A stretch of 38,481 nt of DNA from Salipaludibacillus neizhouensis (GTDB lineage Bacteria; Bacillota; Bacilli; Bacillales; Salisediminibacteriaceae): contig NZ_KZ614148.1 in assembly GCF_002886185.1 (NCBI RefSeq), positions 214,556 to 253,036 on the forward strand. The letters run 5' to 3'. The notes beneath the pieces were generated by a model. That model was not told the DNA's origin and searched no databases. It worked only from the letters and a program-made list of their open reading frames with translations. Shown in pieces: positions 750 through 32,742 of the stretch. Made by a program: the position numbers and the translations under genes. The stretch's first letter is position 1; each line of letters begins with the position of its first letter.

Positions 750-830
750 CTCCTAATATCCTCCTGTCAAACGTTGTTGGTCCAACGAGGAGTTTAAAGT
801 TATTTTGAGAAGTTAGCAAGTGGCGTTTTT

Positions 831-866
831 TAATTTATGAGGGCCCCGCGGGGCCCTCATAAATTA
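831..866. repeat. Perfect 36-bp palindrome, GC-rich core
   Basis: Two 18-bp arms meet with no loop. The arms are TAATTTATGAGGGCCCCG and its exact reverse complement. The GC-rich centre in AT-rich surroundings is striking. It lies about 80 bp outside the istA start, near where the IS21 end should be. It could be a terminator-like hairpin, an element-end structure or a target that attracted the insertion. It lacks the T-tract of a normal intrinsic terminator. Confidence 0.85.
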
Positions 867-1530: not shown

Positions 1531-1539
1531 TCGACATAA

Positions 1540-2105: not shown

Positions 2106-2159
2106 GCCCCTAGAACTTTGAGGCAAAATAAATGAACAAAAGAATAACAATTTGCGAAT

Positions 2160-4399: not shown

Positions 4400-4600
4400 T
4401 GTGAAGGATGTCTATATCATGATTAATAGGTATTCATACTGAGAGAACGGAATCGTGGTCATAATAGTAGAAGGGGTGTTTTCGGATGGGGATTATAACG
4501 GTAAAAGGAGCTAGAAAACAAGCAATCAATAAAGCACAGAAGAAAGGGTGGGCCTGTAAGATTTGAGAGTTAAAAACAATATTGTTAAAAAATTATTCTT
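4400..4600 (+). other. Unassigned segment downstream of the broken inner intron
   Basis: After the stop in the inner maturase remnant the sequence matches nothing I recognise. A 26-codon frame from the ATG at 4486 (MGIITVKGARKQAINKAQKK, then GWACKI) ends at 4566. It has no clear ribosome site and may be the tail of a lost gene. Confidence 0.3.
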
Positions 4601-5403: not shown

Positions 5404-6627
5404 ATGCTAGAGAGAAATTTTGATAAATTATTTACTAGTGTTTCTTTAGCTCGAAAAAATACTATACATTACTCTAAAAATCTCCTTCATTTACCAAAAA
5501 TAGATAGCATGAAATTATTTTGTAATATCCCTTTGCTAGATAAGGAAGATATTAGAAAGGATTATAAGCTATTTCTAGCAAAAGGTAGAATAGAGAAAGA
5601 TTTAGATATAACATACACCTCTGGTTCGACGGGAGTCCCAATTAAGTACATACGCTCAAGAAGAGAGACTATAGATTTAGGAATGAGTCTAGCAATGGAG
5701 CGAAAAAAATGGATTAACGCTAACCTACCATATACCATAGCTCATTTTTTTAAGACTGTAAGACCTATTACATATAAATATTCAAAACGACAAAAGTCTT
5801 CCATGATTCTTTCTTTATATGATCATACACCTGAAAGGTTAAATTTATTTATAAGTGCCCTTAGTGAATTTAAACCAACTATTTTACAAGGCTACTCATC
5901 AACATTATATGAGATAGCAAAATATATAAAAGATAACAATGTAAAACTACCTGAAATTAAGTTGATAGAGAATCGTTCAGAGCATTTAAGTGAAAAACAA
6001 AGAAATTTTATAGAAAACACATTCGACACAAAAGTATCTAATATGTATGGAATGGCTGAGCATTATCCAATTGCTTATTCATGTCGACTTGGTAATATGC
6101 ATATCTGCGAAGGTAACGCTTTTGTAGAAATTATCTCTTCGAATACAAACAATCCAGTCGGGGATGGGGAAACAGGAGAAATAGTTATTACGAGTTTGAT
6201 AAGTGAAACAATGCCGCTTATTAGATATAAAACTGGAGACATTGGAAAAATATCAACTAATAATTGTGAATGTGGGGATACAAGGGCAATCTTGGAATTA
6301 AGTTATGGAAGAACAAACAATTACATTAAAACCCCTCATGGCAACATAAACTCTTCCGTCATAAGAAGGTTATTTAGATATATGTATGATGATGAGTTAA
6401 ATTGGATTAATCAATCCCAGATTATTCAGGAAGATTATTATACTTTTAAAGTCAATCTAGTTCCAAATAAATGGCCACTGAATAATGTAAACGTTATCGA
6501 ACGTAAAGTTGAAGAAATTGTAAAGAGTAGCTTACCGTATAATGTAAAAATAAAAATTGAGTGGGTGAGTAAATTAGAAAAAAACCCCGTTTCTAAAAAA
6601 GTAAGCGAATTCATATCGAAATGTTAG
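5404..6627 (+). CDS. PaaK-like adenylate-forming enzyme (acyl-AMP/CoA ligase family)
   Basis: This 407-residue protein belongs to the ANL superfamily, closest in style to phenylacetate-CoA ligase (PaaK)/F390-synthetase-like enzymes. They activate a carboxylic acid as acyl-AMP and pass it to a thiol. The P-loop YTSGSTGVP is at residues 71-79. SNMYGMAEHYPIAYSC carries the aromatic/Glu A5 motif and IRYKTGDIGK the Asp that binds the ribose. The short C-terminal domain has the usual position for the second half-reaction. It is first in its operon, 12 bp before a carrier protein gene, so the acceptor is probably that carrier's phosphopantetheine and not free CoA. The substrate is unknown; PaaK relatives often use aryl acids. 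Confidence 0.85.
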   Translation: MLERNFDKLFTSVSLARKNTIHYSKNLLHLPKIDSMKLFCNIPLLDKEDIRKDYKLFLAKGRIEKDLDITYTSGSTGVPIKYIRSRRETIDLGMSLAMERKKWINANLPYTIAHFFKTVRPITYKYSKRQKSSMILSLYDHTPERLNLFISALSEFKPTILQGYSSTLYEIAKYIKDNNVKLPEIKLIENRSEHLSEKQRNFIENTFDTKVSNMYGMAEHYPIAYSCRLGNMHICEGNAFVEIISSNTNNPVGDGETGEIVITSLISETMPLIRYKTGDIGKISTNNCECGDTRAILELSYGRTNNYIKTPHGNINSSVIRRLFRYMYDDELNWINQSQIIQEDYYTFKVNLVPNKWPLNNVNVIERKVEEIVKSSLPYNVKIKIEWVSKLEKNPVSKKVSEFISKC

Positions 6628-6639
6628 GAGGAGTTAGGA

Positions 6640-6888
6640 TTGAATAAGAAAAAAGAAATCATAAAGATTATTGTATCTTCAACTGATAAACAACACATTT
6701 ATGAAGATTTTATTATAAATAGTAATAATCTCATTGAAGATTTAGAAATAGATTCTTTGCATTTTATAAATCTAATTGTAGGTTTAGAAGAAAGTTTTAA
6801 AATTACCATTCCAGATGAAATACTGGTGGTGGATACATTTAATACATTCGATAAGATACATAGCCTTATAACTCAATTACAATCTTAA
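6640..6888 (+). CDS. Acyl carrier protein 1
   Basis: An 82-residue acidic helical protein. The carrier motif LEIDSLHFINLIVGLEE places the phosphopantetheine-accepting serine at Ser39, followed by the helix II sequence of PP-binding proteins. The start is a TTG at 6640 with AGGAGG nine bases upstream (6626-6631). It lies between two adenylating enzyme genes, which suggests it is the thiol acceptor for one or both. A Sfp-type transferase gene (15913-16593) in the same cluster could make the holo form. It is free-standing, not fused to a synthase, as in butirosin-like carrier pathways. Confidence 0.88.
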   Translation: MNKKKEIIKIIVSSTDKQHIYEDFIINSNNLIEDLEIDSLHFINLIVGLEESFKITIPDEILVVDTFNTFDKIHSLITQLQS

Positions 6889-6903
6889 GAAGGATGTGGT
6901 TCA

Positions 6904-8376
6904 ATGTGTGATTTTCTTGTGCATAGTTTGTTACAAAATTCTGCATTAAAAACACCTAATGAAATATGTGTTCAATATAAAAATGATAGTTGGTCATATA
7001 TAGAATTATATAATCATTGCTTAAAAATCAAAAAATATTTAGATGAAATTATTGTAGTAGAACGTCGCAATATTGGAATACATTTTAATAATGACCCGAG
7101 CTTTTTAATTTCATTTTTTGGCATTTTAATGGCAGGTCATACAGTTGTACCTATTCCTTATTATTCAACACAAACAGAAGTAGAGAGAATAATTCATTTT
7201 TGCGATATAAAGATTTTGTTTACGGATAAGAAATTTAGTTCAACACATGTAAACACTACAGATGTATCATTTGTAGTGTCAAGATATAGAAATAACACTT
7301 TAGACTTTAAAAGTCCGTTAATAAATAAAAATTCTCCTGCTTTAATCTTGCCTACATCAGGTAGCACAGGCGATCCAAAATTTGTAATGCTTTCTCATTA
7401 TAACATTTATTCTAATGCAATTGCTCATGGGAGAGAAATCCAGCACAATTCTAATGATATTTTTATTATTACAATGCCTCTAAGTTTTAGCTCTACTATT
7501 ACAACTCAAATACTCAGTTGCATTTATTCTAATGTTAAATTCCATATAGTTCCATTACCTTTGTTCCCAAGAGCAATATTAAATTACATAGAAAAATATA
7601 AAATTAATTGTTTAGCTGCAGTACCTTCTTTTTTAATGAATTTAATCGAAGCGATAGAATCATATAATTATAAAATAGATTTTAAATTATCTTTTATTAC
7701 TATTAGTGGTGCTCCAGTAACTCAAAGATTAAACAAACAACTCAAAGAAATATTCCCCAAAACTGATGTTATACAAACTTATGGATTAACTGAAGCTTCT
7801 CCTCGTGTAACCATGATGAGAAGAGGATATCAAAAACTATGTTGTGGAAAACCTGTTGATGGAGTTGAAATTAAAATAAATAAGCAAGAATCCAAAAGAG
7901 AGGGTGAAATATCTGTTCGTGGGGTGAATATTATGATTGGTTATTACAAAAACAAGAAATTAACTCAAAGCACATTTAATAAAAATTGGTTAAGGACAGG
8001 TGATATAGGTTATTTAGATTCAGATGGAGATTTACATTTGATAGGTAGAAAGAAAAATATAATTATATCCGGTGGAATTAATATTTATCCTGAAGAAATA
8101 GAAGAATTTTTTTTCAATCAAATAGGAGTGATTCAAAGTATGGTTATAGGAGAAAAACACTATATTCTTGGAGAATCACCTGTCGTTTATCTTACAATCA
8201 ATAATGAATTTAATATCAAAAATATTTATAACCAAAGTACAAAATTTCTATCAAGATATAAAATTCCTAAGCGTTGGTACAAAGTAAAGAATATTCCTCT
8301 TAACAACACAGGCAAGGTCATTAGAACATTTAAACCAGAATTATTACACAGTGAAGTAATTTTAGATCTATTGTAA
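6904..8376 (+). CDS. AMP-dependent acyl-CoA/acyl-ACP synthetase
   Basis: A full-length 490-residue ANL enzyme. The P-loop LPTSGSTGDPKFVMLSH lies near residue 149-165. QTYGLTEASPRVTMM is the A5 motif, WLRTGDIGYLDSDGDLHLIG the A7/A8 hinge region, and NNTGKVIR supplies the C-terminal catalytic lysine (A10). GRKKNIIISGGINIYPEEIE is the classical medium- or long-chain acyl synthetase pattern. It should adenylate a carboxylate and transfer it to CoA or, given its place 15 bp after the carrier gene, to carrier protein 1. The substrate cannot be read from the sequence. All catalytic motifs are intact. Confidence 0.88.
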   Translation: MCDFLVHSLLQNSALKTPNEICVQYKNDSWSYIELYNHCLKIKKYLDEIIVVERRNIGIHFNNDPSFLISFFGILMAGHTVVPIPYYSTQTEVERIIHFCDIKILFTDKKFSSTHVNTTDVSFVVSRYRNNTLDFKSPLINKNSPALILPTSGSTGDPKFVMLSHYNIYSNAIAHGREIQHNSNDIFIITMPLSFSSTITTQILSCIYSNVKFHIVPLPLFPRAILNYIEKYKINCLAAVPSFLMNLIEAIESYNYKIDFKLSFITISGAPVTQRLNKQLKEIFPKTDVIQTYGLTEASPRVTMMRRGYQKLCCGKPVDGVEIKINKQESKREGEISVRGVNIMIGYYKNKKLTQSTFNKNWLRTGDIGYLDSDGDLHLIGRKKNIIISGGINIYPEEIEEFFFNQIGVIQSMVIGEKHYILGESPVVYLTINNEFNIKNIYNQSTKFLSRYKIPKRWYKVKNIPLNNTGKVIRTFKPELLHSEVILDLL

Positions 8377-8415
8377 TAATTTAACCAAAATATAAAAAGG
8401 AGTTGGTTTTTTATT

Positions 8416-9075
8416 ATGATAGAAGGCAAACATTACGAATTAAAATTCTCAGAAGAAACAATATTTACTAACTATTTAAGATCGATTTCTAAGAGTTTCT
8501 GTCCGTTTTTAGGCCCTTCAGAAAATAAAAATTTGTTATATGCTACGCAATATTCCCTTTCTGGAAGTGATATTAAAGAATTGCAATCACAAATGTTTTA
8601 TTATGGTGTGATTCATACAGAGAAATTAAGAAAAATGAGAAGAAGTATTCCTAATAAAGGAGATAGTCTGCTGGTCTGTGAAAATGTTATTTTTAAGTTG
8701 CCAGAAGAACTTCAATGTATTGATGGTAAAGAACTATTTAGTTGGCCACACTGGACCTTGAAAACACTGTACACAGATGTCGGTGTAATGTTTGGTAAAT
8801 TTTGGGTTGGGGAAAAAGATACAAGTAGAGATAATATTCCTATTACAGAACCACCTTCTAATTTTTTTTCTATAAGATCAGCAATTAAAACAAGTGATCC
8901 ATATTTTTTTAAGAAAGCTCCACAACTATTACCTACATTAATTAATTCCTTTGATGATGTGCGGGATATTCATACTCACTTATTACCTGGAAATTGCTCG
9001 ATAGATGACTTTCAAAGTATGAATGAACATAATTACTATGACGTTGCTCTAGAGTGGGCGAAAAAATTCATCTAA
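8416..9075 (+). CDS. DUF6875-like protein of unknown function
   Basis: A 219-residue protein with no membrane segment. An early motif SFCPFLGPSENKNLLY is followed by SWPHWTLKTLYTDVGVMFGK, then FWVGEKDTSRDNIPITEPPS and FFSIRSAIKTSDPYFFKKAP. This pattern (CPF near the start, GKFW and SIRSA...D..FF later) reminds me of the DUF6875 family found in biosynthetic clusters, but I could not check it. It sits in the operon 39 bp after the synthetase gene, with AAAGGAG upstream. It may act on a carrier-bound intermediate. The function is unknown. Confidence 0.6.
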   Translation: MIEGKHYELKFSEETIFTNYLRSISKSFCPFLGPSENKNLLYATQYSLSGSDIKELQSQMFYYGVIHTEKLRKMRRSIPNKGDSLLVCENVIFKLPEELQCIDGKELFSWPHWTLKTLYTDVGVMFGKFWVGEKDTSRDNIPITEPPSNFFSIRSAIKTSDPYFFKKAPQLLPTLINSFDDVRDIHTHLLPGNCSIDDFQSMNEHNYYDVALEWAKKFI

Positions 9076-9175
9076 CCTTAACAATTCAACTTTATCAAAT
9101 AATAACTAGATGTATAAAAAACTTCTAGAAAAACTAATTATAGTTTTTTTAAATTTAACTATTGAAGGTGATGAA

Positions 9176-9922
9176 ATGAAAAGTTTAGATATTCACAATA
9201 CTATACCCTTTGAAATTAAAAATATCAAAGCTATAGTATTTGATCTTGATGGAACTATATATCCTGCAAAACAATTTGAAAATCAAATTAAACCTAATAT
9301 GGTTAAACATGCAGCAAAAACTCTAAATATTGATGAAGAGAGTGCTAGAAAAACTCTGGCTTTATATCGAAAGGAGTTCCGATCAAGTGTATTAGGTCTC
9401 CAGAAATATCATGAGATTGATCCAAAAATATTTTTAGAGAGTGTATTTAATGATATTGATACTTCCTCTGCTTTGATGTATCCAGGACTTTTGGAAGAAT
9501 TACAATTATTGTCAACGAAAAAATCTTTGAAGTTATTAACAAACTCTAATTATAGCCATGCTGAAAAGATGGTAACAAAATTCAACCTTACAAATGTATT
9601 TGACAATATTTACTCTGTTGATGATTGGAATTTTATTAGGAAACCTAATATAGAGGTATTTGATGGTCTAGTTGAACGATTAAATCTCCCTAGCGAATCA
9701 ATCTTAATTGTAGATGATTCCTATTTGAATCTTGAAATTGCACATCATAAAGGTATGAGAACCATGCTCGTATCGAATCAAATTGTAGAAGCTCCTTATT
9801 ATTGGGAAATGCATAAACGTGAAAAACATCTTCCACAATCATTTATTGATTTAGCAGCACACAATATTACAACCCTTGTAAAAGAAATTAATAATGTTCT
9901 TATAAAAAATTCTAATACCTAA
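9176..9922 (+). CDS. HAD-superfamily phosphatase
   Basis: A 248-residue haloacid dehalogenase-fold hydrolase, similar in layout to pyrimidine 5'-nucleotidase and phosphoglycolate phosphatase-type enzymes. Motif I FDLDGTIYP gives the nucleophile Asp23 and acid/base Asp25, motif II is LLTNSN, motif III has the lysine of RKPN, and motif IV is ILIVDDSYLN. A helical cap lies between motifs I and II. I chose the ATG at 9176 because AAGGTG stands five bases before it. An in-frame ATG at 9110 would add 22 hydrophobic residues but has no ribosome site. Next to a kinase-like gene it could remove a phosphate from a pathway intermediate or a phosphorylated inactive product. Confidence 0.85.
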   Translation: MKSLDIHNTIPFEIKNIKAIVFDLDGTIYPAKQFENQIKPNMVKHAAKTLNIDEESARKTLALYRKEFRSSVLGLQKYHEIDPKIFLESVFNDIDTSSALMYPGLLEELQLLSTKKSLKLLTNSNYSHAEKMVTKFNLTNVFDNIYSVDDWNFIRKPNIEVFDGLVERLNLPSESILIVDDSYLNLEIAHHKGMRTMLVSNQIVEAPYYWEMHKREKHLPQSFIDLAAHNITTLVKEINNVLIKNSNT

Positions 9923-9992
9923 ATAACTTATATAAACGATTAAATGATGGCAATAAAAGTATAAAATCTAATTAACGATAGGAGTTTATTTT

Positions 9993-10904
9993 ATGAATAA
10001 TTTTTCACAAAAGGATTTTATTAAGAAGGTAAGTGGGTTAGTAGGAATGGAACTGAGTATTATTGAACAACTTCAATCAAGAGAAGGATTTTCTTTTAGA
10101 GTAAAAGGGAATAGTCAGGAAATGCTAATAAAATTTATTGATATTAATACTAATAATGCTACACAAAGGCAACGTGTAAAATCTCTAAAAAATGAAGCGA
10201 AAATTTTAATTGAACTTGCTAAATTTAGTAATGATACTTATATATCAAGTGGTACATTGGACACAACGGTTTGGATACTTAGAAAATGGATAGATGGAAT
10301 AACTGTTTGGGAACATACTAAATACATTCGTGCTAATCCTCAATTACAAGAAAATAAACAAAAATTTATCGAATCATTAATTCACATGGTGAAAAAAGTA
10401 ATTCAACTTAATAAATTAGGATATCTTCACGGTGACCTCCAACCAAACCACTTTCTTATCGATAATAATGAGCGAGTTCATCTTATAGATTTGGAAGTTT
10501 CTGTTCAAATGGATCAGAAAGATACGGGTTATATTGGAGCTTTATTACACTTTGTATCACCAGAAACAGCTGAAGGAATGCTTAAAGAAAAACTAAACAT
10601 ACCACTAGATCTTATGTCGGAAATATATTCGTTTGGGGCTGTTTCTTTTTTTCTCTACACGGGATACACAGCCAATTCGTATGGGGAATCTCCTGCCAGC
10701 AACCAAATAAAGGGAATCGAAAAAAACGATAAATTAACTGCCATCACTTTAGGAAAAACGAGAACTTTTTCTCAAATAGATGCAGAACCCTTTCCAGATT
10801 TTGAAAGTGTAATAATGAAGTGTCTTAGTTTACAAAGAACTAACAGGTTTAAAAACTTTGAAGAATTATTAATTTCACTTGAATTAATTTTAAATGATTT
10901 GTAA
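9993..10904 (+). CDS. Divergent protein-kinase-fold enzyme
   Basis: A 303-residue single-domain kinase with no membrane helix. The VAIK-type lysine is probably Lys47 (LIKF) and the helix C glutamate Glu68 (KNEAKIL). The catalytic loop reads HGDLQPNH (146-153), so catalytic Asp148 is kept, but the usual Lys is Gln150 and the metal-binding Asn is His153. The DFG motif is DLE (166-168). The later segment SEIYSFGAVSFFLYTGY looks like subdomain IX of Ser/Thr kinases, so this is not a plain aminoglycoside phosphotransferase. It ends the first operon after the phosphatase gene. It could phosphorylate the product for self-protection, phosphorylate a pathway protein, or be a pseudokinase. Confidence 0.8.
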   Translation: MNNFSQKDFIKKVSGLVGMELSIIEQLQSREGFSFRVKGNSQEMLIKFIDINTNNATQRQRVKSLKNEAKILIELAKFSNDTYISSGTLDTTVWILRKWIDGITVWEHTKYIRANPQLQENKQKFIESLIHMVKKVIQLNKLGYLHGDLQPNHFLIDNNERVHLIDLEVSVQMDQKDTGYIGALLHFVSPETAEGMLKEKLNIPLDLMSEIYSFGAVSFFLYTGYTANSYGESPASNQIKGIEKNDKLTAITLGKTRTFSQIDAEPFPDFESVIMKCLSLQRTNRFKNFEELLISLELILNDL

Positions 10905-10969
10905 ACATTTGTATTATTACGTATATTAAAGCGTTAGAGAAGGATGACGAGAGCTTAAAATTACCTGTC

Positions 10970-10985
10970 TGGAAACGTTTTTTTA
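10970..10985 (+). promoter_or_regulatory. Second cre-like box upstream of the exporter genes
   Basis: The sequence CTGGAAACGTTTTTTTAA (about 10969-10986) has the TGNAANCG half of a catabolite-response element followed by T-rich sequence. It lies about 30 bp upstream of the exporter promoter. Confidence 0.3.
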
Positions 10986-11007
10986 ACCTGAAAAAACATT
11001 TTTCGTA

Positions 11008-11036
11008 TTGACAAGCGTTTTTAAGAATGTTAATTA
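11008..11036 (+). promoter_or_regulatory. Exporter promoter with operator-like spacer
   Basis: TTGACA (11008-11013) and TAATTA (11031-11036, with a TG one base upstream) are spaced 17 bp. The spacer contains AGCGTTTTTAAG, so TGACAAGCGTTTTTA forms another cre-like box overlapping the -35. A repressor bound there would block polymerase. Predicted start near 11043. Confidence 0.55.
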
Positions 11037-11075
11037 AAGGAGATTTTTTATATCAAAAGTATGAGAGGGTAGATC

Positions 11076-11114
11076 ATGGAATTAGACGATAAGTATTATG
11101 GGGGAATTTTGTGA
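11076..11114 (+). CDS. 12-codon leader peptide overlapping the exporter gene
   Basis: ATG at 11076 opens MELDDKYYGGIL and its TGA overlaps the GTG start of the exporter gene (GTGA at 11111-11114). GAGAGGG stands about eight bases upstream. It is short enough to be a translational-coupling leader. The acidic start and the GG near the end also recall tiny peptide precursors, but neither role can be shown. It could also be chance. Confidence 0.35.
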   Translation: MELDDKYYGGIL

Positions 11115-12883
11115 AAACAAACGCAAAAATCAGCCAAAAAAATAATGGCCTATTATCTGTTTATTTATGGTGTTTATCATTTATATGGACATATAAATGG
11201 AGATTATGTTTTTTAATCCTTACAGGAATTATTGTTACTGGAACACAATTAGTAGTGCCAAAACTTATTCAATTCTCCATCGATCATATCTTTCCGAACA
11301 AAGACTATTTACTATTTATTTACTTATTAATATTATTTCTAATCTTATTAATAATAATGTTTGTAACAGCCACAGTTCAAAATTGGCTTAAAAGGACACT
11401 ACAAGAATATGCTTCTAGGGATTTACATTTATCCATTATAAAACAAATAAGGTTGCTGGGATTTAGTTATTATGAACGCCATCCTATTGGTGAGACTTTA
11501 GCTTTTATTAATACTGAATTGACAGCAATCCAAGAGTTATATAGAATACTTTTTCCAAGAATGGTTAGACTCATCATTTTTAGTATTATAGCAGTAATAA
11601 TGATGATGTCTATAAATATAAAACTAACACTTATTTCCTCCTTAAGTCTATTATTATATTATTTTATTGGACCATATTTTGAAAAGAAAACTGCGATGTT
11701 AAGTAAGAGTCTAGCTAACAACAGAGTAGAGGAAAGTAAAAAGGTTTATGAAAGTATCTCCGGTATTAATGAACTTAGAATTAATTCGGCAGAAGAATGG
11801 GACCTATCTAATTACTTAAAAACACTTAAACTTTTGAATATGAATATGATAAGTATGTATTGGTATGCTTATTGGAGAGCATCCGTTCGAAGATTCTCTT
11901 ACTATTCTGGTGGAATAGTCTTAATCATCTATGGTACTTTCTTAATCCAAGGAAACACTCTAACTATTGGAGAGTTTGTAGGATTCTTACTATACTATTT
12001 TAGTTCTATGCAAATGATAACAAATGTAATTACGGTTATAACAGAACAAAAGGTTTTACTATATCAAGCGAAAAAAATATTCGATTTTATGCAAACAACT
12101 GCTGAAATAACAAATCCTACTTCGCCAATTAAACTATCTGAAATAAAAGGCGAAATTGAGTTTAGAAATGTGAGTTTTTATTATACTGATAATTTAAAGG
12201 TTTTAAACAAGATTGATTTACGTATTTCACCTGGTGAAAAAATTGCTTTAGTTGGTGCAAGTGGTAGTGGAAAAACTACAATGTTAAAATTAATAGGTAG
12301 ATTTTACGATCCTCAAGAAGGAGAAATAATAATTGATTCTGTTCCTCTAAAAAAAGTGTCACTTTTTCAGTTGAGAGAATCTTTAGGGTATGTGTTTCAA
12401 GAAACCTTCTTATTCGGAAGTACAGTGAAAGAAAACATCTTATTTGGAAATCCTCATGCTTCTGACGATATGGTGTATAAAGCTGCAAAAGTATCACTAG
12501 CCCATGAATTCATTATGGAATTACCACATCAATATGATACTCCTTTAGGAGAAAGGGGAGTACGATTATCAGGTGGGCAAAAACAGAGGATTGCTATTGC
12601 AAGGATGGTTCTCAAGGACCCTCCTGTTATTTTGTTAGACGAAGCAACTTCTGCATTAGACAATAACACAGAATCAGAGGTTCAAATCGCCTTTGATAAT
12701 TTATTAAAAGGACGTACTACTATTGCTATAGCTCACAGTAGAGAAACAATTAAAAAATTCGAAAAACTTGTTGTGATTAATAACGGAATAATTGTAGAGA
12801 AGGGTTCCTATAATGATTTAATTGCAAAAAAAAGATATTTTTATAATCTCATGAACAATGAGGTGGAACATGAGATACTTTAA
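11111..12883 (+). CDS. Half ABC exporter 1 (MsbA/LmrA type)
   Basis: A 590-residue membrane-domain plus ATPase fusion. The first 320 residues hold about six membrane helices (for example LCFLILTGIIVTGTQLVV and LLIILFLILLIIMFVTA-like stretches). The nucleotide-binding domain has Walker A GASGSGKT, signature LSGGQKQR, Walker B VILLDEATSALD and the switch His in AIAHS. No N-terminal C39 peptidase is present, so there is no sign of leader-peptide cleavage by this transporter. The GTG start at 11111 follows GGGGGA and overlaps the leader peptide's stop. The next gene, another half exporter, overlaps it, so the two probably form a heterodimeric exporter that moves the cluster's product out and may give self-resistance. 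Confidence 0.92.
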   Translation: MKTNAKISQKNNGLLSVYLWCLSFIWTYKWRLCFLILTGIIVTGTQLVVPKLIQFSIDHIFPNKDYLLFIYLLILFLILLIIMFVTATVQNWLKRTLQEYASRDLHLSIIKQIRLLGFSYYERHPIGETLAFINTELTAIQELYRILFPRMVRLIIFSIIAVIMMMSINIKLTLISSLSLLLYYFIGPYFEKKTAMLSKSLANNRVEESKKVYESISGINELRINSAEEWDLSNYLKTLKLLNMNMISMYWYAYWRASVRRFSYYSGGIVLIIYGTFLIQGNTLTIGEFVGFLLYYFSSMQMITNVITVITEQKVLLYQAKKIFDFMQTTAEITNPTSPIKLSEIKGEIEFRNVSFYYTDNLKVLNKIDLRISPGEKIALVGASGSGKTTMLKLIGRFYDPQEGEIIIDSVPLKKVSLFQLRESLGYVFQETFLFGSTVKENILFGNPHASDDMVYKAAKVSLAHEFIMELPHQYDTPLGERGVRLSGGQKQRIAIARMVLKDPPVILLDEATSALDNNTESEVQIAFDNLLKGRTTIAIAHSRETIKKFEKLVVINNGIIVEKGSYNDLIAKKRYFYNLMNNEVEHEIL

Positions 12884-14567
12884 ATGGATATCTTCGTTAC
12901 TAAATGGAATAAGACATATGTTTCTCTTAGGTGTTGTATTATTAATTATAGAATCCCTAAGTTTACTTTTTGCTATAGGTTTGCAAAAACAACTAATAGA
13001 TGAGGTTTTATTCAAAGAAAATTATACAAACTTTCATATAATCGTTATAAGCATGGCATTCCTATATCTTATCCATTCATTATTATTTACATTTGGTCCA
13101 CTCGCTTGCCATCATGTAGTTGCTCACATTCGTTTTACTTTGTCCAAACATTTAATGCTTTATTTGCATAAAATTCCAAAAGACAAATTACAGAAAGAAA
13201 GATCTGCGACTTTTGTACATTATTTCACTCAGGATATTAGGATGATATCCAGGTTAACAGGAGAAGAAATTCCTAATTTATTAAAAGAAATAGTGATCTC
13301 TTTATTTTTAATATTTATAGTAGGATATGCTAATATAATTCTTTTAATATCTATTTTACTATTTAGTCTTTTAAATATAGTTATAGGAAGGTACTTTGCA
13401 CCGAAGTTAAAGAAAATGGCTAAGAATGTAGAGAAAACCAAATCTGAGCTCCTAATACACTCGGAAGAAAGTATATCTTCTACACGAGAAGTTATTGCCT
13501 TTAATAGACATCAATGGGAACTTGAGAACTTTAATAGAATATATAATCGTTATTTCACCGCAGCAATGGCAGAAGGACAATTGGTTAATAAACAAATGCT
13601 AAGTAGCGAGCCAATTAGATGGGGAGCTAATTTATCAATATTAGGAATTGGTGGATTTCTTGTTTTGCAAGGTCAACTTTCAGTTGGATTATTTATAGTG
13701 GTATACCAGTATACTTCCAGGTTATTGACTTCTTTTCAAACTATATTTAATTCAATAATGCTTATTTCAAGTAGAATGAGTAATGTTGATCGTATACGAG
13801 AAGTATTAGAGGGAGAAAAATGGAATGAAGGTGATAAATCTCTACAGAGTAGCATTACTAATATAAAATTTGATCATGTTAATTTTAAATATGATGATAA
13901 CGCATCTCCAATCTTAAGGGATATAAATATAGAATTACCTATTGGAAAGAAAATCGCCTTTGTTGGTTTAAGTGGTGGCGGAAAGTCGACTATAGTTCAA
14001 CTATTAGCACGTCTTCATGAACCTACAGAAGGAAATATACTGGTAAATAATATCCCATTGAATAATATTAAAAGAAAAAATTGGATGAGTAAAATAGCAG
14101 TTGTGTTTCAAGATCCTTATTTATTCCCCGATACAATAAGAAATAACTTGTTGTTTGGAGTTGAGCACATAAGTGATGAATATTTAGACAAAATATGTAA
14201 AACAGTTAGTATTTATGATTATATTAAAAGCTTAAAAAAGGGTTACGACACTATTATAGGAGAGAGAGGTATTACACTATCAGGTGGACAAAGACAACGA
14301 ATTGCACTTGCAAGAGCATTACTTAGAAATCCTGAAATTTTAATACTTGATGAAGCAACTTCTGCGCTCGATGTCAAAAATGAGCATCTTATTCAAATTA
14401 ATATTGATAAACTTAGAAAAGATAAAACTACTATTATTATAGCACATAGATTGTCTACTATTAAAAATGCTGATGTTATTTATTTAATTAAAAAAGGGGA
14501 AGCGATTGAAGTAGAAAAGCCTAAAAACTCTGAGCAATGGGAATTTATTTATGAAAACATTCAATAA
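12870..14567 (+). CDS. Half ABC exporter 2 (MsbA/LmrA type)
   Basis: The partner half exporter, 565 residues from the ATG at 12870. That start is preceded by GAGGTGG, and an in-frame ATG four codons earlier overlaps this ribosome site. It overlaps the end of exporter 1 by 14 nt, which suggests coupled translation and a heterodimer. About six membrane helices come first, including LLGVVLLIIESLSLLFAIGL. The ATPase domain has Walker A GLSGGGKS, signature LSGGQRQR, Walker B ILILDEATSALD and IAHRLSTIKNADVIYL as the H-loop. Both ATP sites look close to canonical from these motifs. The substrate cannot be inferred beyond the cluster context. Confidence 0.92.
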   Translation: MRYFKWISSLLNGIRHMFLLGVVLLIIESLSLLFAIGLQKQLIDEVLFKENYTNFHIIVISMAFLYLIHSLLFTFGPLACHHVVAHIRFTLSKHLMLYLHKIPKDKLQKERSATFVHYFTQDIRMISRLTGEEIPNLLKEIVISLFLIFIVGYANIILLISILLFSLLNIVIGRYFAPKLKKMAKNVEKTKSELLIHSEESISSTREVIAFNRHQWELENFNRIYNRYFTAAMAEGQLVNKQMLSSEPIRWGANLSILGIGGFLVLQGQLSVGLFIVVYQYTSRLLTSFQTIFNSIMLISSRMSNVDRIREVLEGEKWNEGDKSLQSSITNIKFDHVNFKYDDNASPILRDINIELPIGKKIAFVGLSGGGKSTIVQLLARLHEPTEGNILVNNIPLNNIKRKNWMSKIAVVFQDPYLFPDTIRNNLLFGVEHISDEYLDKICKTVSIYDYIKSLKKGYDTIIGERGITLSGGQRQRIALARALLRNPEILILDEATSALDVKNEHLIQINIDKLRKDKTTIIIAHRLSTIKNADVIYLIKKGEAIEVEKPKNSEQWEFIYENIQ

Positions 14568-14681
14568 AAAAAGCCATAGATTTTACTTGATCGATTTCAA
14601 ACTTTTAACTCTTTATTTATGTAAGAGAATACTAATGAATGACTGAAAATTAACAAAGATATGAGAAAGGAGTTCCATGCC

Positions 14682-15728
14682 ATGGATGTTATATTACCAA
14701 GAGTTAAATCTCCAATTACATCTTTCCCATCACACGCTAATTTACTTTCAGTAATCTTGACAAAAGAAGAACATAAGAGATGGTATTATTCAAATTACAC
14801 TCAATTATTTAGTTTTGGTAAAGAATATAAGGGGTGTACTGTAGATTATTTTCCTCCAGATTCCTTAGAGTATTGTTCACTAATTAAAAAATATCATCTA
14901 CCAAGAGAGTTGATAAAAAAAACATTTAACGAAAATTTTAACGAATTTCTAAAAGATTGTATTGATGATGGATATTACTTATATGGTGATTTTAATGAAT
15001 ATTATAACCCAAATAATAAAACAGCATATAAAAATCAGTACTTTCCTCATAATATAATGATTTATGGTTATAATTATGGACAAAAACATTTCCTATTTTC
15101 AGGTTTTTTTAATAAAACTCCCTACAAAAATTATACTATCTCATATTCTAATATCCAAAAGTCTTTTTTTTCTATAAATACAAATGATAATAGGTATAAA
15201 AACTCTAATCGTTGTGATGGTTTAATGATGTTTAAATTAAAAGAAAACGAATGTGTATATCCTTTTGAATATAATAAATTCAAAACTTCCTTAGAAGATT
15301 ATATATATTCTAATAATTCAATCAACAAGGATCTCTTATGGAATGACTCGAAACAAATTGTTTTTGGGAGTAATGTTTACCATGTAGTTTCCTATTTTAT
15401 TGCAAATTTTTCTGAACAATTGTATTATGATTGGTTCCGAATAATAAGATCCTTACAGGTGCTTGTGGAACACAAAAAAGTGATAATTGAAAAGGTACTC
15501 TACTTGGAAAATCAAAACATATTAGGTTCATCAAAAGAAATATTATATGAATTAAAAATAATAGAGAGGAAATTGGTTTTGCTGAGAAATATTCTATTAA
15601 AGTCTTATCGCAAAAAAAGTTTTCATTTATTTAGAGATTATTCAAATAATTTATTAGATATTCAAAAAAACGAGAGTCGCTGTTTCACTGAATTATTAAA
15701 AAATTTACCTGATTCTAATAATATCTAA
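14682..15728 (+). CDS. BtrH/papain-like-fold protein 1, possible acyl transferase without the usual Cys
   Basis: A 348-residue soluble protein. The start at 14682 follows GAAAGGAG; an in-frame ATG at 14661 overlaps that ribosome site. The N-terminal half resembles uncharacterised proteins related to the BtrH_N/C39-like cysteine peptidase fold. A D-G-YYLYGDFNEYY strand is followed by YFPHNIMIYGYNYGQKHFLF, giving a candidate catalytic His123. At the place of the expected N-terminal Cys helix (TSFPSHANLLSVI, residues 13-25) there is no Cys. In butirosin synthesis BtrH moves an acyl group from a carrier protein to the acceptor; a similar role here is inference. The C-terminal half is charged and helical, possibly coiled coil. 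It follows the exporter genes by 114 bp. The fold assignment is tentative. Confidence 0.6.
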   Translation: MDVILPRVKSPITSFPSHANLLSVILTKEEHKRWYYSNYTQLFSFGKEYKGCTVDYFPPDSLEYCSLIKKYHLPRELIKKTFNENFNEFLKDCIDDGYYLYGDFNEYYNPNNKTAYKNQYFPHNIMIYGYNYGQKHFLFSGFFNKTPYKNYTISYSNIQKSFFSINTNDNRYKNSNRCDGLMMFKLKENECVYPFEYNKFKTSLEDYIYSNNSINKDLLWNDSKQIVFGSNVYHVVSYFIANFSEQLYYDWFRIIRSLQVLVEHKKVIIEKVLYLENQNILGSSKEILYELKIIERKLVLLRNILLKSYRKKSFHLFRDYSNNLLDIQKNESRCFTELLKNLPDSNNI

Positions 15729-15778
15729 ATGCTATACAATTATTTAATTATCATAGAATTAAATAATTTTTGAATTTA

Positions 15779-15806
15779 TTGACATAAATATAAAAAAAAG
15801 TATATT
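15779..15806 (+). promoter_or_regulatory. Sigma-A-type promoter of the third transcription unit
   Basis: A perfect TTGACA (15779-15784) is followed after 16 bp by TATATT (15801-15806). Transcription from about 15813 would give a leader near 100 nt before the phosphopantetheinyl transferase gene. Confidence 0.6.
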
Positions 15807-15849
15807 CTAAGAATACAAATTATAATATACAAATTTAATTTTAGTTTTT

Positions 15850-15863
15850 TGTAAACGCTTAAT
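15850..15863 (+). promoter_or_regulatory. cre-like operator box of the third transcription unit
   Basis: TGTAAACGCTTAAT matches the catabolite-response consensus at 12 of 14 positions. It lies about 37 bp downstream of the predicted start, the same roadblock position as in the first operon. This is the best of the cre-like boxes in the cluster. Confidence 0.55.
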
Positions 15864-15912
15864 ATTTGTGTTCTAAGTCTTATATCAATCTTAACCTTAT
15901 TTATATTGGGAT

Positions 15913-16593
15913 GTGATAAAAATAAAAATTTACAGATGTAAACAACCCTCGGATATTAATTTTGATGCAATAAAAGAGTTTTTATCTTTAGATAGAAAGG
16001 ATAAGTTGAAAGAAAACATAAAGCCATATAACTTTGGGGAATTTATTTCTGAGTTGTTTCTAAAGTATATTTTGATTAAAGAATATTCACTAGATTCGAA
16101 TTTCCAACTTGCTCATAATAAATATGGGAAACCAAAGCTTAAAAATAAAAATTTATTTTTTAATATTTCTCATTCTGGAGTATGGATAGTATGTGCTGTA
16201 GATTCAATTCCTATTGGCATTGATATTGAAGAAATGTCATATGTTGACTGTTCAATCGCTAAAAAATTTCTACATATAGACGAATATTATTACATTTTTG
16301 ACTGCAAAGAAAAAAGAAAACAAATAGAGAGTTTCTATAGTATGTGGACATTAAAAGAAAGTTATGTCAAGGAAATTGGTGTTGGTTTAAGTCACCGTCT
16401 CAACTTATTTAAAGTCATTAAACTAATAAATGGTAAATGGATTATAAATGATAAAGGAAATATTCATCATTTAAAGCAGTATAGATTTGCTCCAAAATAC
16501 ATTATGTCAGTCTGTACAACTAGAAATAAGTTTCCTAATACAATATCTCTTATAACATTTAATCAAATTGAAGATTTTATTAAACACCAATAA
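15913..16593 (+). CDS. 4'-phosphopantetheinyl transferase, Sfp type
   Basis: A 226-residue pseudodimeric Sfp/Gsp-type enzyme, normal length. It moves the phosphopantetheine arm of CoA onto carrier-protein serines. Motifs seen are NKYGKPKL (69-76), FFNISHSG (82-89), PIGIDIEEM with metal-binding Asp104 and Glu106, and FYSMWTLKESYVKEIGVGL with Glu149 and Lys153. The start is a GTG at 15913 with only a weak GGGA nearby, so yield may be low. It lies 35 bp before carrier protein 2, so it probably activates the two carriers of this cluster. Its presence supports the cluster being a self-contained biosynthetic unit. Confidence 0.93.
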   Translation: MIKIKIYRCKQPSDINFDAIKEFLSLDRKDKLKENIKPYNFGEFISELFLKYILIKEYSLDSNFQLAHNKYGKPKLKNKNLFFNISHSGVWIVCAVDSIPIGIDIEEMSYVDCSIAKKFLHIDEYYYIFDCKEKRKQIESFYSMWTLKESYVKEIGVGLSHRLNLFKVIKLINGKWIINDKGNIHHLKQYRFAPKYIMSVCTTRNKFPNTISLITFNQIEDFIKHQ

Positions 16594-16628
16594 ACATAAC
16601 AAATTACTCTTTATGAGGTGGGATTTAT

Positions 16629-16886
16629 ATGCAAGATGAATATATTTTAAAAGTATTACAATCTGTAGCACAATCTATTACAGGTTCTCCAAATGAACTT
16701 CCAATAGACTGTGAATTTACCTTATTAGGGTTAAATTCAATTGATATAATTACCATAATATCAAAGGTTGAAAAAGAGTTTAATATAAGGTTTGATAGTC
16801 ACGATTTGATTTTAGAAAACTTCTCATCAATTTATAAAATTAAGCATCAAGTATTAAGAAAAAAGAACAGAAAGAGTGATACATGA
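16629..16886 (+). CDS. Acyl carrier protein 2
   Basis: An 85-residue carrier protein. The motif LLGLNSIDIITIISKVEKEF places the phosphopantetheine serine at Ser37; the common Asp before it is Asn36. GAGGTGG stands upstream of the ATG. Its stop overlaps the start of the next gene (ATGA), so it is translationally coupled to the following adenylating enzyme, its likely loading partner. It differs clearly from carrier protein 1 (DSL motif), which suggests two separate carrier-bound building blocks. Confidence 0.88.
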   Translation: MQDEYILKVLQSVAQSITGSPNELPIDCEFTLLGLNSIDIITIISKVEKEFNIRFDSHDLILENFSSIYKIKHQVLRKKNRKSDT

Positions 16887-18367
16887 TGGAGGAATTACTA
16901 AAAAAACATTGTAACTTATCCCCCAATAATATAGCTTTGAAAGACAGTGAACAAACTATTACTTGGGTTGAATTATATGAAAATATAAAACATTTATCAC
17001 AAAAAATCGACTATATCCCTAATGAGAGGGTTGCTATTTCTCTTAGCAATGATGTTAGGACTATTACCTTATTAATAACATTATTAATTAATGGGTTCGA
17101 TGTTGCACTTTTAGATCCTGAAATAAGTGAAACTGATTGGGAAAATATAAAAGGGAAAATTAATTCAGATAACGTTTGTTTTGTTTCAAAGAATCATCAA
17201 ATTCTTAAATCTGTGAATTTTAATCAGTTAATTGATCTAGACATGCTGTTTAAAGATCTTAAAAAACAAAAGTTAGATAACGAATACAATTATCAAAATA
17301 AAATGAAAGGTGCTTTGCTATTTATAACTTCTGGCACTACAGGATCGCCAAAAATTGTAAAAAAAACAATTAAATCTCTTATAAATGAAGGAGCATCTCA
17401 TACAGAATCATTTAATTTAAGCTACAAGGACTCTTTATTAGTAAGTATTCCCTTATACCACGCGTTTGCCTGCGGTGCAGCCCTATTTAGCAGTATATAT
17501 AGTGGTGCAGCCCTAATTGTCTCAAAAGTTTTTTTTCCTCGATTAATTACAGATATTATTCATAAAGAAAAAATAACCATTCTATTTTTAATACCTTCAT
17601 TAGTTAAACTATTAGTTAACATAAAAATGGAAAAAAGAATAAGTTTATCTTCTTTAAAGTTCGTCATAGTTGGAACAGGGTATCCTTCAAATCAAATTGC
17701 AAAAGAGTTCTCCGAAGTTTTTAAGATTGGTTTAACAGGTCACTATGGTAGTTCAGAAACAGGAGGAGTCTCATTTTGCTTACCCAAATTTGATTCTTAT
17801 CCCACTAAGGGCTTAATCGGTAAACCTTTGGCAAGTAGGGAAATTAAAATAGTTGATGATAGAGGAAATAATTTAGAAAATGAAAAAATAGGCAAAATAG
17901 CTGTGAAGACTGACTCTTTGTTTGCCGGATATATAAACGGCAATGAATTTTTAGATAACCGGAGGAGTTTATGGTTGACTGGTGATATTGGTTACCGAGA
18001 CAACACAGGTAATTTTTTTATTGTTGGGAGAGAATCTAACGCGTTTCATCGTAATGGGAAAAAAATTTATCCTGAAGCTATAGAAAATGGGCTCTTAAAT
18101 TCTTTAAATAATATAGTTGAATTAGCAATAGTTGGGGTTACAAACAAAGATATTCAAGATGATTTTATAATTTTAGCAATAGTTACAGATAGTTCAAAAA
18201 TAGAGGAGAGTTTAATACGATCATTATTCATGAAAAAAATCGGCAAAAATTATATTCCTGATAAAATCATACATCTTAAAAGTCTTCCAAAAACTAAAAA
18301 TGGGAAAATAAATAGGAAAAAAACTAGTGAAATTGTATTTAATTATTTAACAAAAAACAAAATTTAA
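16883..18367 (+). CDS. Acyl-AMP ligase, third adenylating enzyme
   Basis: A 494-residue ANL-superfamily enzyme. It has P-loop FITSGTTGSPKIVKKT (about 148-163), A5-like GHYGSSETGGVSF, WLTGDIGYRDNTGNFFIVGR (A7/A8), and the catalytic lysine in KTKNGKINRKK near the end. The start overlaps the carrier gene stop by 4 nt, so it most likely loads carrier protein 2. The acyl-binding region LVSIPLYHAFACGAALF is typical of acyl-CoA/acyl-ACP ligases. In butirosin synthesis BtrI plays the comparable carrier-loading part. The substrate is unknown. Confidence 0.87.
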   Translation: MMEELLKKHCNLSPNNIALKDSEQTITWVELYENIKHLSQKIDYIPNERVAISLSNDVRTITLLITLLINGFDVALLDPEISETDWENIKGKINSDNVCFVSKNHQILKSVNFNQLIDLDMLFKDLKKQKLDNEYNYQNKMKGALLFITSGTTGSPKIVKKTIKSLINEGASHTESFNLSYKDSLLVSIPLYHAFACGAALFSSIYSGAALIVSKVFFPRLITDIIHKEKITILFLIPSLVKLLVNIKMEKRISLSSLKFVIVGTGYPSNQIAKEFSEVFKIGLTGHYGSSETGGVSFCLPKFDSYPTKGLIGKPLASREIKIVDDRGNNLENEKIGKIAVKTDSLFAGYINGNEFLDNRRSLWLTGDIGYRDNTGNFFIVGRESNAFHRNGKKIYPEAIENGLLNSLNNIVELAIVGVTNKDIQDDFIILAIVTDSSKIEESLIRSLFMKKIGKNYIPDKIIHLKSLPKTKNGKINRKKTSEIVFNYLTKNKI

Positions 18368-18389
18368 AGACTTAGAAGGAGAGGTTAAG

Positions 18390-19364
18390 ATGAAAAAAAA
18401 TGAGATTATAGAACTTTTACAAAGCATAGGTTCTGAGCAAAAAATGTTGTTTAGAAGAGCAAGAGACATAAAAGAAAAAGAATTCGGCAATTATATTATT
18501 TTAAGAGGTGTTATAGAAACTACCAATTTGTGTAAAGTGAATTGCGACTATTGTCCAATGAGAAAAGACAATATAAAAAACAATTCAATATTTACATTAG
18601 AAGAAAAAGAAATACTTTCAACGGCCAATATAATAAAAGATAACAACGTAAATATTGTTTTTTTTCAAGGAGGGGAAGTTCCACAAACAACAAAATTAAT
18701 AGGAAGAGTTATACCTAAAATAAGAAAACTTTTCAATGATAAAGTTGAAATTTTACTAAACTTAGGTATAAAAAGAAAGGATGAATTTCAATATCTTTAT
18801 GACCAAGGGGCGACTAGTTATATTTTAAAGCATGAAACAAGCGATGAAGATCTACATTTTAGATTGAGACATGAACACTTAAGCACAAGAATAGAAGCCA
18901 TTAAAAATTTAGTTGACATCGGATTTAAAACTGGAACAGGAATGATAGTAGGACTACCAGGTCAATCAATTTCTTCTATTGCAAATGACATTATTTTAGC
19001 TAAAGATTTAGGTGTTCATATGTGTAGCGCATCTCCTTTTATACCTGCGCCTAATACACCATTAGTAAGCAATAAGCATGGATCAGTCGATATAAGTTTG
19101 AATGCAATTTCGATCATGAGAATACTATCCCCCAATTGGTTAATTCCATCTGTTAGCGCACTGGAAAAAATAAGGAAAGATGGACAAGCTCAAGGGATAC
19201 GTGCTGGAGCAAATGTATTAACAATTAATTTTACACCTAGTATAGCAAAACAAAAATATTTAATTTACGGTCGGGAAAGGTTTGTAGTAAAAAATCATTA
19301 TGTATCTAGTTTAATCAAAAAAGAAAGATTATTAGTTTCACCGTCAGTATTTATAAAAAGATAG
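18390..19364 (+). CDS. Radical SAM enzyme, HydE/BioB/PylB-like
   Basis: A 324-residue enzyme. ETTNLCKVNCDYCPM holds the iron-sulfur cluster cysteines Cys48, Cys52 and Cys55. The rest has the BioB/HydE/PylB plan: FFQGGEVP, ILLNLGIKRKDEFQYLYDQG, then YILKHETSDEDLHFRLRHEH, GTGMIVGLPGQ, ASPFIPAPNTPL and ANVLTINFTP. It fills the whole TIM-barrel length with no SPASM extension, so it is not a peptide-modifying type. Relatives make HydE products, biotin or methylornithine. No hydrogenase, biotin or pylorrolysine genes are nearby, so it probably rearranges, methylates or sulfurates a cluster intermediate. AGAAGGAGAGG precedes the start. It is 22 bp after the ligase gene. Confidence 0.88.
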   Translation: MKKNEIIELLQSIGSEQKMLFRRARDIKEKEFGNYIILRGVIETTNLCKVNCDYCPMRKDNIKNNSIFTLEEKEILSTANIIKDNNVNIVFFQGGEVPQTTKLIGRVIPKIRKLFNDKVEILLNLGIKRKDEFQYLYDQGATSYILKHETSDEDLHFRLRHEHLSTRIEAIKNLVDIGFKTGTGMIVGLPGQSISSIANDIILAKDLGVHMCSASPFIPAPNTPLVSNKHGSVDISLNAISIMRILSPNWLIPSVSALEKIRKDGQAQGIRAGANVLTINFTPSIAKQKYLIYGRERFVVKNHYVSSLIKKERLLVSPSVFIKR

Positions 19365-19400
19365 ATGGGTATTAAAAATACTGTTGAAGGAGGAATTTTC

Positions 19401-20474
19401 ATGTCATTAAAAAAACTTAATTATAATTATATTTCAGAGGATCATGTATATCCATTAGTTAATGATTGTATAGAGCGATCTATTTATCTAGTAGCAAAGC
19501 AAAAAACGAATTTTGGGAAACATCTTTATAAATTATTTGTCTCTTATTTAAGTTATAATTTATCGATAGATCATAATGGTAAAAACCTAAGGTTAAAGCC
19601 TAGTGAAATTCAATATCCAGAATTTATTAGTCTCAGACATGAATATAACATTAAATTTGATGCAAAAACAGCTATAAACAAATTAGAAAAAACATTAAAT
19701 GAAAATAAGTTTGTTTTATTAAGAACAGTGACCAAAAGGGTTCCTTTTTTTAGTAGATACGATAAAGATTATATAGTTCAAAAAAAGGATTTAATTAAAC
19801 CTGGACATTTTATTCTACTTATTGGGCACGACCAAAAATATTTGTATTATGTAGATCGAACTGAAGACTTAAATCTAAATAATCATACTGCATATAAAAA
19901 AAATCCAGACGTTGGTATGGTAGAGAAGCGAAAGATGATTGATGCATTTAGTTATTATATTGATATTTCCACTATAAATGTAAATATACATGAATTAGAT
20001 AATTTTCTTAAACATGACAGTATAATTTATATTATGAATAATATTAATAAATCAATTGATCAGTACAAAGATACTAAGGTTTTAGAAAAAGATGACCAAA
20101 TAATATTTCCTAATAAGAAGGCTATCGAATATCTAATTAGTTTATCAAAAAAAGGGAATACATTTTTGAATACAGAATATAAAACCGCAAGTGAGAACAA
20201 AATTGTAAATGGATTAGATTGGATTTTAAAAAGAAGAAAAATTCTTAAATACTTCATCGAAACTCAAAAAATAGAATGTAACAATGAATTGATACATTTG
20301 CTAAATAAAAATATTAATAATATCGAAGTAGCAAAGAACACCTTAATTATAAACATGCTAAATAAAGATTGGCTATTTGATTTAAGATATACCTCATTAT
20401 TCAAGGATGTATTAGAATCGGAAAACACTTTAATTAATGAGTTGCAAAATTACACCAGAAAAATAAATAAGTAA
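19401..20474 (+). CDS. BtrH/papain-like-fold protein 2, candidate acyl transferase
   Basis: A 357-residue protein. The ATG at 19401 follows GGAGGAA; an in-frame upstream ATG (19365) has no ribosome site. A possible Cys-His-Asp triad of the C39/BtrH-type fold is visible: Cys23 in LVNDCIERSIYLVAK, His136 in KPGHFILLIGHD and Asp152 in YYVDRTEDL. The remaining C-terminal 200 residues are charged and helical. BtrH-type enzymes move a carrier-bound acyl chain to an amine; here such a step could join the two carrier-borne blocks or attach one to an acceptor. It is the last gene of the cluster. The fold and triad are inferred by eye. Confidence 0.6.
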   Translation: MSLKKLNYNYISEDHVYPLVNDCIERSIYLVAKQKTNFGKHLYKLFVSYLSYNLSIDHNGKNLRLKPSEIQYPEFISLRHEYNIKFDAKTAINKLEKTLNENKFVLLRTVTKRVPFFSRYDKDYIVQKKDLIKPGHFILLIGHDQKYLYYVDRTEDLNLNNHTAYKKNPDVGMVEKRKMIDAFSYYIDISTINVNIHELDNFLKHDSIIYIMNNINKSIDQYKDTKVLEKDDQIIFPNKKAIEYLISLSKKGNTFLNTEYKTASENKIVNGLDWILKRRKILKYFIETQKIECNNELIHLLNKNINNIEVAKNTLIINMLNKDWLFDLRYTSLFKDVLESENTLINELQNYTRKINK

Positions 20475-24989: not shown

Positions 24990-24993
24990 TTTA

Positions 24994-27676: not shown

Positions 27677-27737
27677 ATAAGAGTAACTTTTTAGTGGTAC
27701 ATGATTAACCTTCTATTAAAGAATAGGAGGTTTTTTT

Positions 27738-28047: not shown

Positions 28048-28063
28048 GTTTATTTATTAAAAT

Positions 28064-28105: not shown

Positions 28106-28107
28106 AA

Positions 28108-28623: not shown

Positions 28624-28629
28624 TCTCAT

Positions 28630-29893: not shown

Positions 29894-29915
29894 ATAGATT
29901 CATAGAGTCATTTGC

Positions 29916-32532: not shown

Positions 32533-32539
32533 TCAAAAT

Positions 32540-32735: not shown

Positions 32736-32742
32736 AAAAAAT

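Follow-up and report, generated by a model that had tools for sequence, protein, structure and literature searches.

The locus described here raises two questions: how free acyl carrier proteins (ACPs) and separate ligases could build a product where neither a ketosynthase nor a condensation domain is found, and whether the genes that stand together belong to one pathway. It occupies positions 5404-20474 of a 38,481-bp stretch of the Salipaludibacillus neizhouensis genome (contig NZ_KZ614148.1, positions 214,556 to 253,036 of the forward strand), hereafter the window. The host genome measures 5.5 Mb and belongs to the class Bacilli. The locus is a real cluster of a recurring kind, of unusual make-up and mosaic with a second gene module. 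The reading that we favour, and consider reasonably probable, is that of a mosaic natural-product cluster in which a carrier-protein pathway would use acyl transfer of the BtrH type, and which was probably acquired horizontally.

All 14 cluster genes are found on the + strand, each at the place and with the family affiliation given in an earlier note on this DNA (Table 1), and the distances between them range from -26 to 206 bp. The description of an AT-rich, same-strand set of about 15 kb was correct: the GC content is 0.284, compared to 0.356 in the remainder used as reference (window positions 1-4600 plus 27701-38481). A Pfam search of the window proteins (E up to 0.01) returned no ketosynthase or condensation domain for the 14 genes, which thus lack the mark of a nonribosomal peptide synthetase (NRPS) or polyketide synthase (PKS) cluster. 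The earlier note had read this as an absence of elongation or condensation enzymes. That stands for the two domains named, but the BtrH-family proteins of the cluster are themselves likely to be acyl-transfer enzymes. The proposal of discrete carrier chemistry with BtrH-like proteins (here Btr1 and, less surely, Btr2) is supported. The genes of ACP1 and ligase 2, and those of ACP2 and ligase 3, adjoin almost without a gap, which suggests paired loading.

Among the 398 genomes of the class, 24 (the host counted) have a relative of Btr1, spread over 10 of the 146 genera. When 20 of the surrounding loci, each of about 20 kb and together from 17 genomes, were scored, 18 contained a carrier or an ANL ligase, compared to none of 20 control stretches taken at fixed positions in 10 genomes, eight of which are shared with the 17. 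The carrier model was seeded partly from loci that were afterwards scored with it; the ligase model was built from the window only and gives the cleaner figure (12/20 Btr1 loci versus 0/20 control stretches). The surroundings of Btr1 were then read over 20 to 80 kb each in 20 other genomes (genomes and loci carry our G and L numbers). A PaaK-like ligase, an ANL ligase, an ACP and Btr1 occur together in three other Bacilli genomes: G695, which has two such clusters, G713 and G579. Btr2 is also present in cluster 1 of G695, and G713 and G579 share the exporter pair at the identities listed in Table 1; for exporter 1, the top-ranking record among at least 5000 from plasmids reaches 32.9% identity. 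These clusters differ from the window by added genes, namely a short-chain dehydrogenase/reductase in G695 cluster 1 and G713, an FkbH-like gene recognized by eye in G695, and a class-II aminoacyl-tRNA-synthetase-like gene and a pyridoxal phosphate (PLP) decarboxylase in G713, both near carriers (L055, 2794-3972 and 7952-9229). No homologue of the DUF6875-like or HydE-like genes of the window was found in the regions read in the three genomes. The G713 cluster also has an APH-like kinase, at most a parallel to the kinase/HAD pair of the window. The earlier note had made a single pathway depend on co-occurrence of its genes elsewhere. Since the core recurs in other genomes this holds for the core genes, but not for the whole 15 kb, which do not form one co-inherited unit: the DUF6875-like, HAD and kinase genes belong to a separate module.

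Kinship with BtrH becomes apparent with family profiles. Taken singly, Btr1 gives a sub-threshold Pfam match to BtrH_N (E 0.047) and Btr2 no Pfam match. The Btr1 family profile aligns to that of BtrH with an hhalign E of 2.8e-10 (96.8%), so that Btr1 is firmly placed by sequence as kin to BtrH, while the corresponding alignment of the Btr2 family (E 1.3e-5, 80.8%, over 265 columns) places Btr2 there weakly. The earlier claim of two BtrH-like proteins is thus secure for the first and fragile for the second. BtrH_N matches were found in 12 genomes, several of them on Btr1 relatives, one of which reaches the Pfam cut-off (G687, 29.7 bits). In the Btr2 alignment, C35 and H148 fall on the Cys and His of BtrH and are kept in 4 of 4 sequences. 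The 21 aligned Btr1 sequences have no conserved Cys that could serve as nucleophile; almost no variation is seen in two columns, those of residue 112 (Asp) and residue 130 (His), and the position of the BtrH Cys appears by eye to be Ala or Gly, in a part that hhalign left unaligned. Searches of PDB sequences with the Btr1, Btr2 and DUF6875-like profiles gave nothing at E < 0.8. The two genes are given here from their first ATGs (14661 and 19365); the starts proposed earlier, at 14682 and 19401, are also plausible.

BtrH-like domains are also found fused to carriers. In large Bacilli proteins of L124 and L125 such a domain follows, at the C-terminus, a carrier motif recognizable by eye; the arrangement is probably the same in L126 and L142, where only the part after the serine is visible. 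In G312 (L007, 15220-19999) a carrier domain recognized by Pfam precedes a Btr2 relative in one protein. The fused domains of L124 and L125 are possible release or joining domains. The fusion gene of L007 adjoins an AAT-like gene and a gene with weak, sub-cut-off PP-loop matches, a neighbourhood that recalls closthioamide clusters. PMC2922099 proposes that papain-like transacylases of the BtrH family adjoin acyl-CoA ligases and ACPs in predicted operons, and PMC10318531 describes BtrH as an ACP:aminoglycoside acyltransferase. The kinship with BtrH, the carrier-fused domains, this proposal and this role together suggest that the cluster probably has joining enzymes of its own. In the Bacilli cluster family outlined here the joining step seems to rest on BtrH-like proteins and not on condensation domains, and the family includes a branch without conserved cysteine that also stands near carriers and NRPS-size genes.

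Table 1. Positions in the window of the cluster genes, the WDC gene and the mobile genes around them.
Feature	Position	Strand	Evidence or remark
Reverse transcriptase	2983-3873	+	
WDC protein (named here), 119 aa	4716-5075	-	Sequence ends in ASWDCTPS; conserved small component of the DUF6875-like/HAD/kinase module
PaaK-like short ANL ligase, 407 aa	5404-6627	+	Pfam AMP-binding; NCBIfam DVU1553 family, PaaK and FlxY models, all sub-cut-off
ACP1, free acyl carrier protein	6640-6888	+	Pfam PP-binding, E 2.5e-4, 21.7 bits (cut-off 20.8); several NCBIfam ACP models sub-cut-off
ANL ligase 2, FadD/MenE-like	6904-8376	+	Pfam AMP-binding; NCBIfam; starts 15 bp past ACP1
DUF6875-like protein	8416-9075	+	Pfam, 23.6 bits, just below the cut-off of 24.5
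HAD hydrolase, pyrimidine 5'-nucleotidase-like	9110-9922	+	Pfam HAD; NCBIfam; 45% and 47% identity to the module HAD genes of G617 and Priestia megaterium
Protein-kinase-like phosphotransferase	9993-10904	+	Pfam Pkinase
Half-ABC exporter 1	11111-12883	+	Pfam; 47% identity to one gene of the G713/G579 pair
Half-ABC exporter 2	12858-14567	+	Pfam; overlaps exporter 1; 46-47% identity to the other gene of the G713/G579 pair
Btr1, BtrH_N-type family without conserved Cys	14661-15728	+	Family profile against BtrH_N (hhalign); 21-sequence alignment
Sfp-type phosphopantetheinyl transferase	15913-16593	+	Pfam ACPS, E 1.5e-13
ACP2, free carrier protein	16629-16886	+	Pfam PP-binding, 34.6 bits
ANL ligase 3	16883-18367	+	Pfam AMP-binding; NCBIfam; 4-bp overlap with ACP2
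HydE-like radical SAM enzyme outside HydE proper	18390-19364	+	Pfam Radical_SAM; NCBIfam; motif comparison
Btr2, BtrH-like, conserved Cys35 and His148	19365-20474	+	Family profile (hhalign, weak); alignment
Three adjacent tyrosine recombinases	22936-26298	-	Right of the cluster
Resolvase	30428-31000	+	
IS110-type transposase	31297-32532	-	

Two known systems invite comparison. With the butirosin side-chain pathway the cluster shares a BtrH-family protein, free ACPs and a presumed acyl transfer from a carrier. It differs in having three ANL ligases, a phosphopantetheinyl transferase (PPTase), a radical S-adenosylmethionine (SAM) enzyme, an exporter pair and a second BtrH-like protein without conserved Cys, while neither a BtrK-like PLP decarboxylase nor an ATP-grasp enzyme, which in butirosin we take to be BtrJ-like, is among the Pfam results for the 14 genes. 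The butirosin analogy drawn by the earlier note is therefore retained for the BtrH step only. Assembly of the closthioamide type resembles the cluster by its discrete carriers and by a free-standing transferase for which a role in joining carrier-bound pieces has been proposed (PMC6772006). The cluster has no AANH or ATP-grasp enzyme among its 14 genes. The open papers searched showed no characterised counterpart, although none of the searches was aimed at this particular combination of genes.

The second module includes a fifteenth gene, overlooked by the earlier note, that goes with the genes starting at 8416, 9110 and 9993. It lies on the - strand, divergent from the PaaK-like gene at a distance of 328 bp, and encodes a protein that we name WDC after its tail. 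This protein belongs to no family of Pfam, NCBIfam or PADLOC and has 40-44% identity, among the tblastn matches listed, to proteins encoded beside DUF6875-like genes. The small protein, the DUF6875-like protein and then the kinase are encoded in this order in Lihuaxuella thermophila, Seinonella peptonophila, G617 and Priestia megaterium, with the HAD gene between the last two in G617 and Priestia as in the window. The DUF6875-like gene has relatives in 4 of the 398 class genomes, the host included. A scan of genome contigs retrieved 48 named module loci, with a kinase downstream of the DUF6875-like gene in 44, a WDC model match in 40 (in 38 if position is judged strictly; reading frames merge in L105 and L120) and a HAD gene in one. 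The seeds of the WDC model were 20 proteins chosen by their W[D/N]C motif, of which 18 came from among the 48 loci then scored. The module is common to Bacilli and to many Streptomyces and Kitasatospora (L075-L122), and is compact there, whereas in the window it is split and interleaved with ACP genes. Three Bacilli copies are adjoined by a regulator with tetratricopeptide repeats and a helix-turn-helix (TPR-HTH), two of the three being named by similarity only. No tblastn counterpart of these regulators was found in the window or in its two 20-kb flanks, one of which contains runs of N and for that reason had its GC content set aside.

The DUF6875-like protein scores below the Pfam cut-off. 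Of the 30 sequences in its family alignment, counting the one from the window, 27 give a DUF6875 match with E up to 0.01; four of seven homologues on Streptomyces plasmids are annotated as DUF6875. Its structure model is confident, with a predicted local distance difference test (pLDDT) score of 93.4, and a fold search with it found nothing in the PDB at E up to 0.001. Invariant residues in the 30 sequences include C29, C88 and W110-P111-H112, any of which could ligate heme. The only report found in a search of the DUF6875 literature concerns another member of the family: PMC13307353 describes DUF6875 proteins as heme-binding and able to oxidise tryptophan, and cites for this a 'cytochrome P422' family presented in bioRxiv. 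The protein of the window is probably a heme oxygenase of this 'P422' kind.

A peptide hybrid would bring these elements together: WDC would serve as precursor or scaffold, the DUF6875-like enzyme would oxidise its C-terminal Trp, and the ACP/BtrH machinery would add an acyl group to it. The tail is W[D/N/R]C in 42 of 43 aligned rows (30 WDC, 11 WNC and 1 WRC; the remaining row is a wrong-frame fragment), 20 of the rows being the model seeds, and its Trp and Cys are kept in 22 of the 22 genes not used as seeds, a pattern that fits this idea as does the tryptophan oxidation reported for DUF6875 proteins. However, the conservation of WDC spans the whole protein as in a folded domain, and most precursor peptides are not conserved in this way; nor does any separate protease or leader-binding domain appear in the Pfam results for the 14 genes. 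We consider the hybrid improbable. Its most explicit form, to which we would give a slim chance, has WDC as a conserved, genome-encoded scaffold: the DUF6875-type heme enzyme would oxidise the Trp-[Asp/Asn]-Cys tail at its C-terminus, and the BtrH-like pair, one with and one without a nucleophile, would acylate the scaffold from the free carriers. If true, ribosomal-peptide chemistry would here meet carrier-protein chemistry; we know of no system of such make-up.

Several observations weigh against a carrier-protein pathway served by the whole cluster. Three of the 14 genes (DUF6875-like, HAD and kinase) belong to the second module, and a carrier or ligase was detected in two of the 48 module loci and in none of the other 46, nor by BLAST in G606, G795 and G617. 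No DUF6875-like homologue was found in the regions read of G695, G713 and G579 either. This would agree with two unrelated systems, an ACP/BtrH-type cluster and the WDC/DUF6875-like/HAD/kinase module with a task of its own, interleaved by insertion and without a shared product. Such a juxtaposition is unlikely but deserves attention; what speaks against it is that the module genes are split, WDC lying left of the PaaK-like gene and 8416-10904 between ligase 2 and the exporter. The latter genes have the same strand as their neighbours and are spaced by 34-206 bp, an arrangement that points to a single transcription unit. The carrier-protein pathway itself faces further difficulties. Of the 20 other genomes read around Btr1, no more than three had PaaK-like genes nearby, G713 and G579 count as one type because they are of the same genus and have like clusters, and NRPS-size ligase frames (>600 aa) replace PaaK-like genes in 10 of the 20 loci of one Btr1 locus set. 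Full-length Btr2 relatives are rare (4/398 class genomes, the host included); the profile matched 24 genomes, of which 20 gave partial, weak matches (E 3.6e-8 or worse) that were left out of the family, and a weak match of G149 that contains stops was dropped. Btr1 is near Btr2 in G695 and G022. Around the Btr2 of G679 no further cluster gene is seen, the nearest ligase match being a giant NRPS-size frame 16 kb off. Against a smaller profile of three NRPS-borne BtrH-like domains Btr2 reaches only E 0.17, hhalign finds no match between Btr1 and Btr2, the Btr1 of the window has Asn in the column of residue 112 that is nearly always Asp, and a structure model of Btr2 made without alignment (pLDDT 38.8) was discarded as useless. 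Lastly, no BLAST relative of the radical SAM enzyme was found in the Btr1, DUF6875-like and Btr2 loci examined.

This enzyme had been described as HydE/BioB-like, which agrees with the NCBIfam ranking: HydE is nearest (228.3 bits, cut-off 254.6), followed by PylB and BioB. HydE being its best named match, an ordinary HydE that makes the island serve [FeFe] hydrogenase maturation has to be considered. A set of 32 HydE-like sequences (3 annotated hydE and 29 unannotated matches) was used for comparison; it shows CG[L/I] after the cluster cysteines in 31 sequences, Q[S/G]GED in 31 and TT[A/S]L in 29, where the window enzyme has CPM, QGGEV and VSAL. A protein encoded on a Bradyrhizobium plasmid also has CPM and no TTAL, though its QSGED is intact; it groups with the window enzyme in a FastTree tree (branch support not printed), apart from the rest except L210. 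The host genome has no match to the [FeFe] hydrogenase domain PF02906, which was detected in the positive control Thermotoga maritima. Hydrogenase maturation has next to no chance on these grounds; the enzyme is HydE-like but, with its motifs changed and no [FeFe] hydrogenase found in the genome, not HydE. The region of the Bradyrhizobium protein (L168, 8866-10086) has glycosyltransferases and a gene with a coproporphyrinogen-III oxidase family annotation. The radical SAM enzyme finds matches at E up to 1e-30 in 149 of 279 genomes of the phylum, the host included, the best others with 38% identity, and none in 99 other near-relative genomes. This gap and the lower GC content point to horizontal transfer. 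A scan of genome contigs with this single protein gave 56 pattern matches, none of them to a relative.

For the favoured carrier-protein pathway, the observed gene kinships allow a scheme whose chemistry we infer from them. The PPTase would arm ACP1 and ACP2, onto which ligases 2 and 3, respectively, would load an acid, and the PaaK-like ligase might activate a third one, perhaps aromatic. A building block may be rearranged or oxidised through the HydE-like and DUF6875-like enzymes; that it is aromatic or an indole is hinted at weakly by the PaaK-like and DUF6875-like families. Btr2 would take the acyl group from the carrier through its Cys-His pair and hand it to an amine; Btr1, lacking the Cys, would be its partner or a subunit for docking. 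The kinase might add and the HAD hydrolase remove a phosphate, perhaps for self-protection, which is a guess, and the ABC pair would export the product. Both this scheme and the assignment of the module give predictions for purified proteins. A role of the kinase in a defence system was considered and rejected: PADLOC models PD-T4-6, MkoA and mad6 match the gene at 9993 (best E 2e-17), which we read as a shared kinase fold, and the seven other proteins submitted gave no match.

The cluster lies in a mobile neighbourhood, as judged from the genes on both sides (Table 1), among which the tyrosine recombinase trio resembles what we take to be a 'recombinase in trio' element. No Btr1 was found in the Priestia megaterium genome that carries the WDC module. 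A viral or plasmid origin was considered and rejected. Neither Btr2 nor the DUF6875-like set had a relative in viral contigs. Plasmids had no Btr2, and distant Btr1 relatives were found in two Paenibacillus plasmids.

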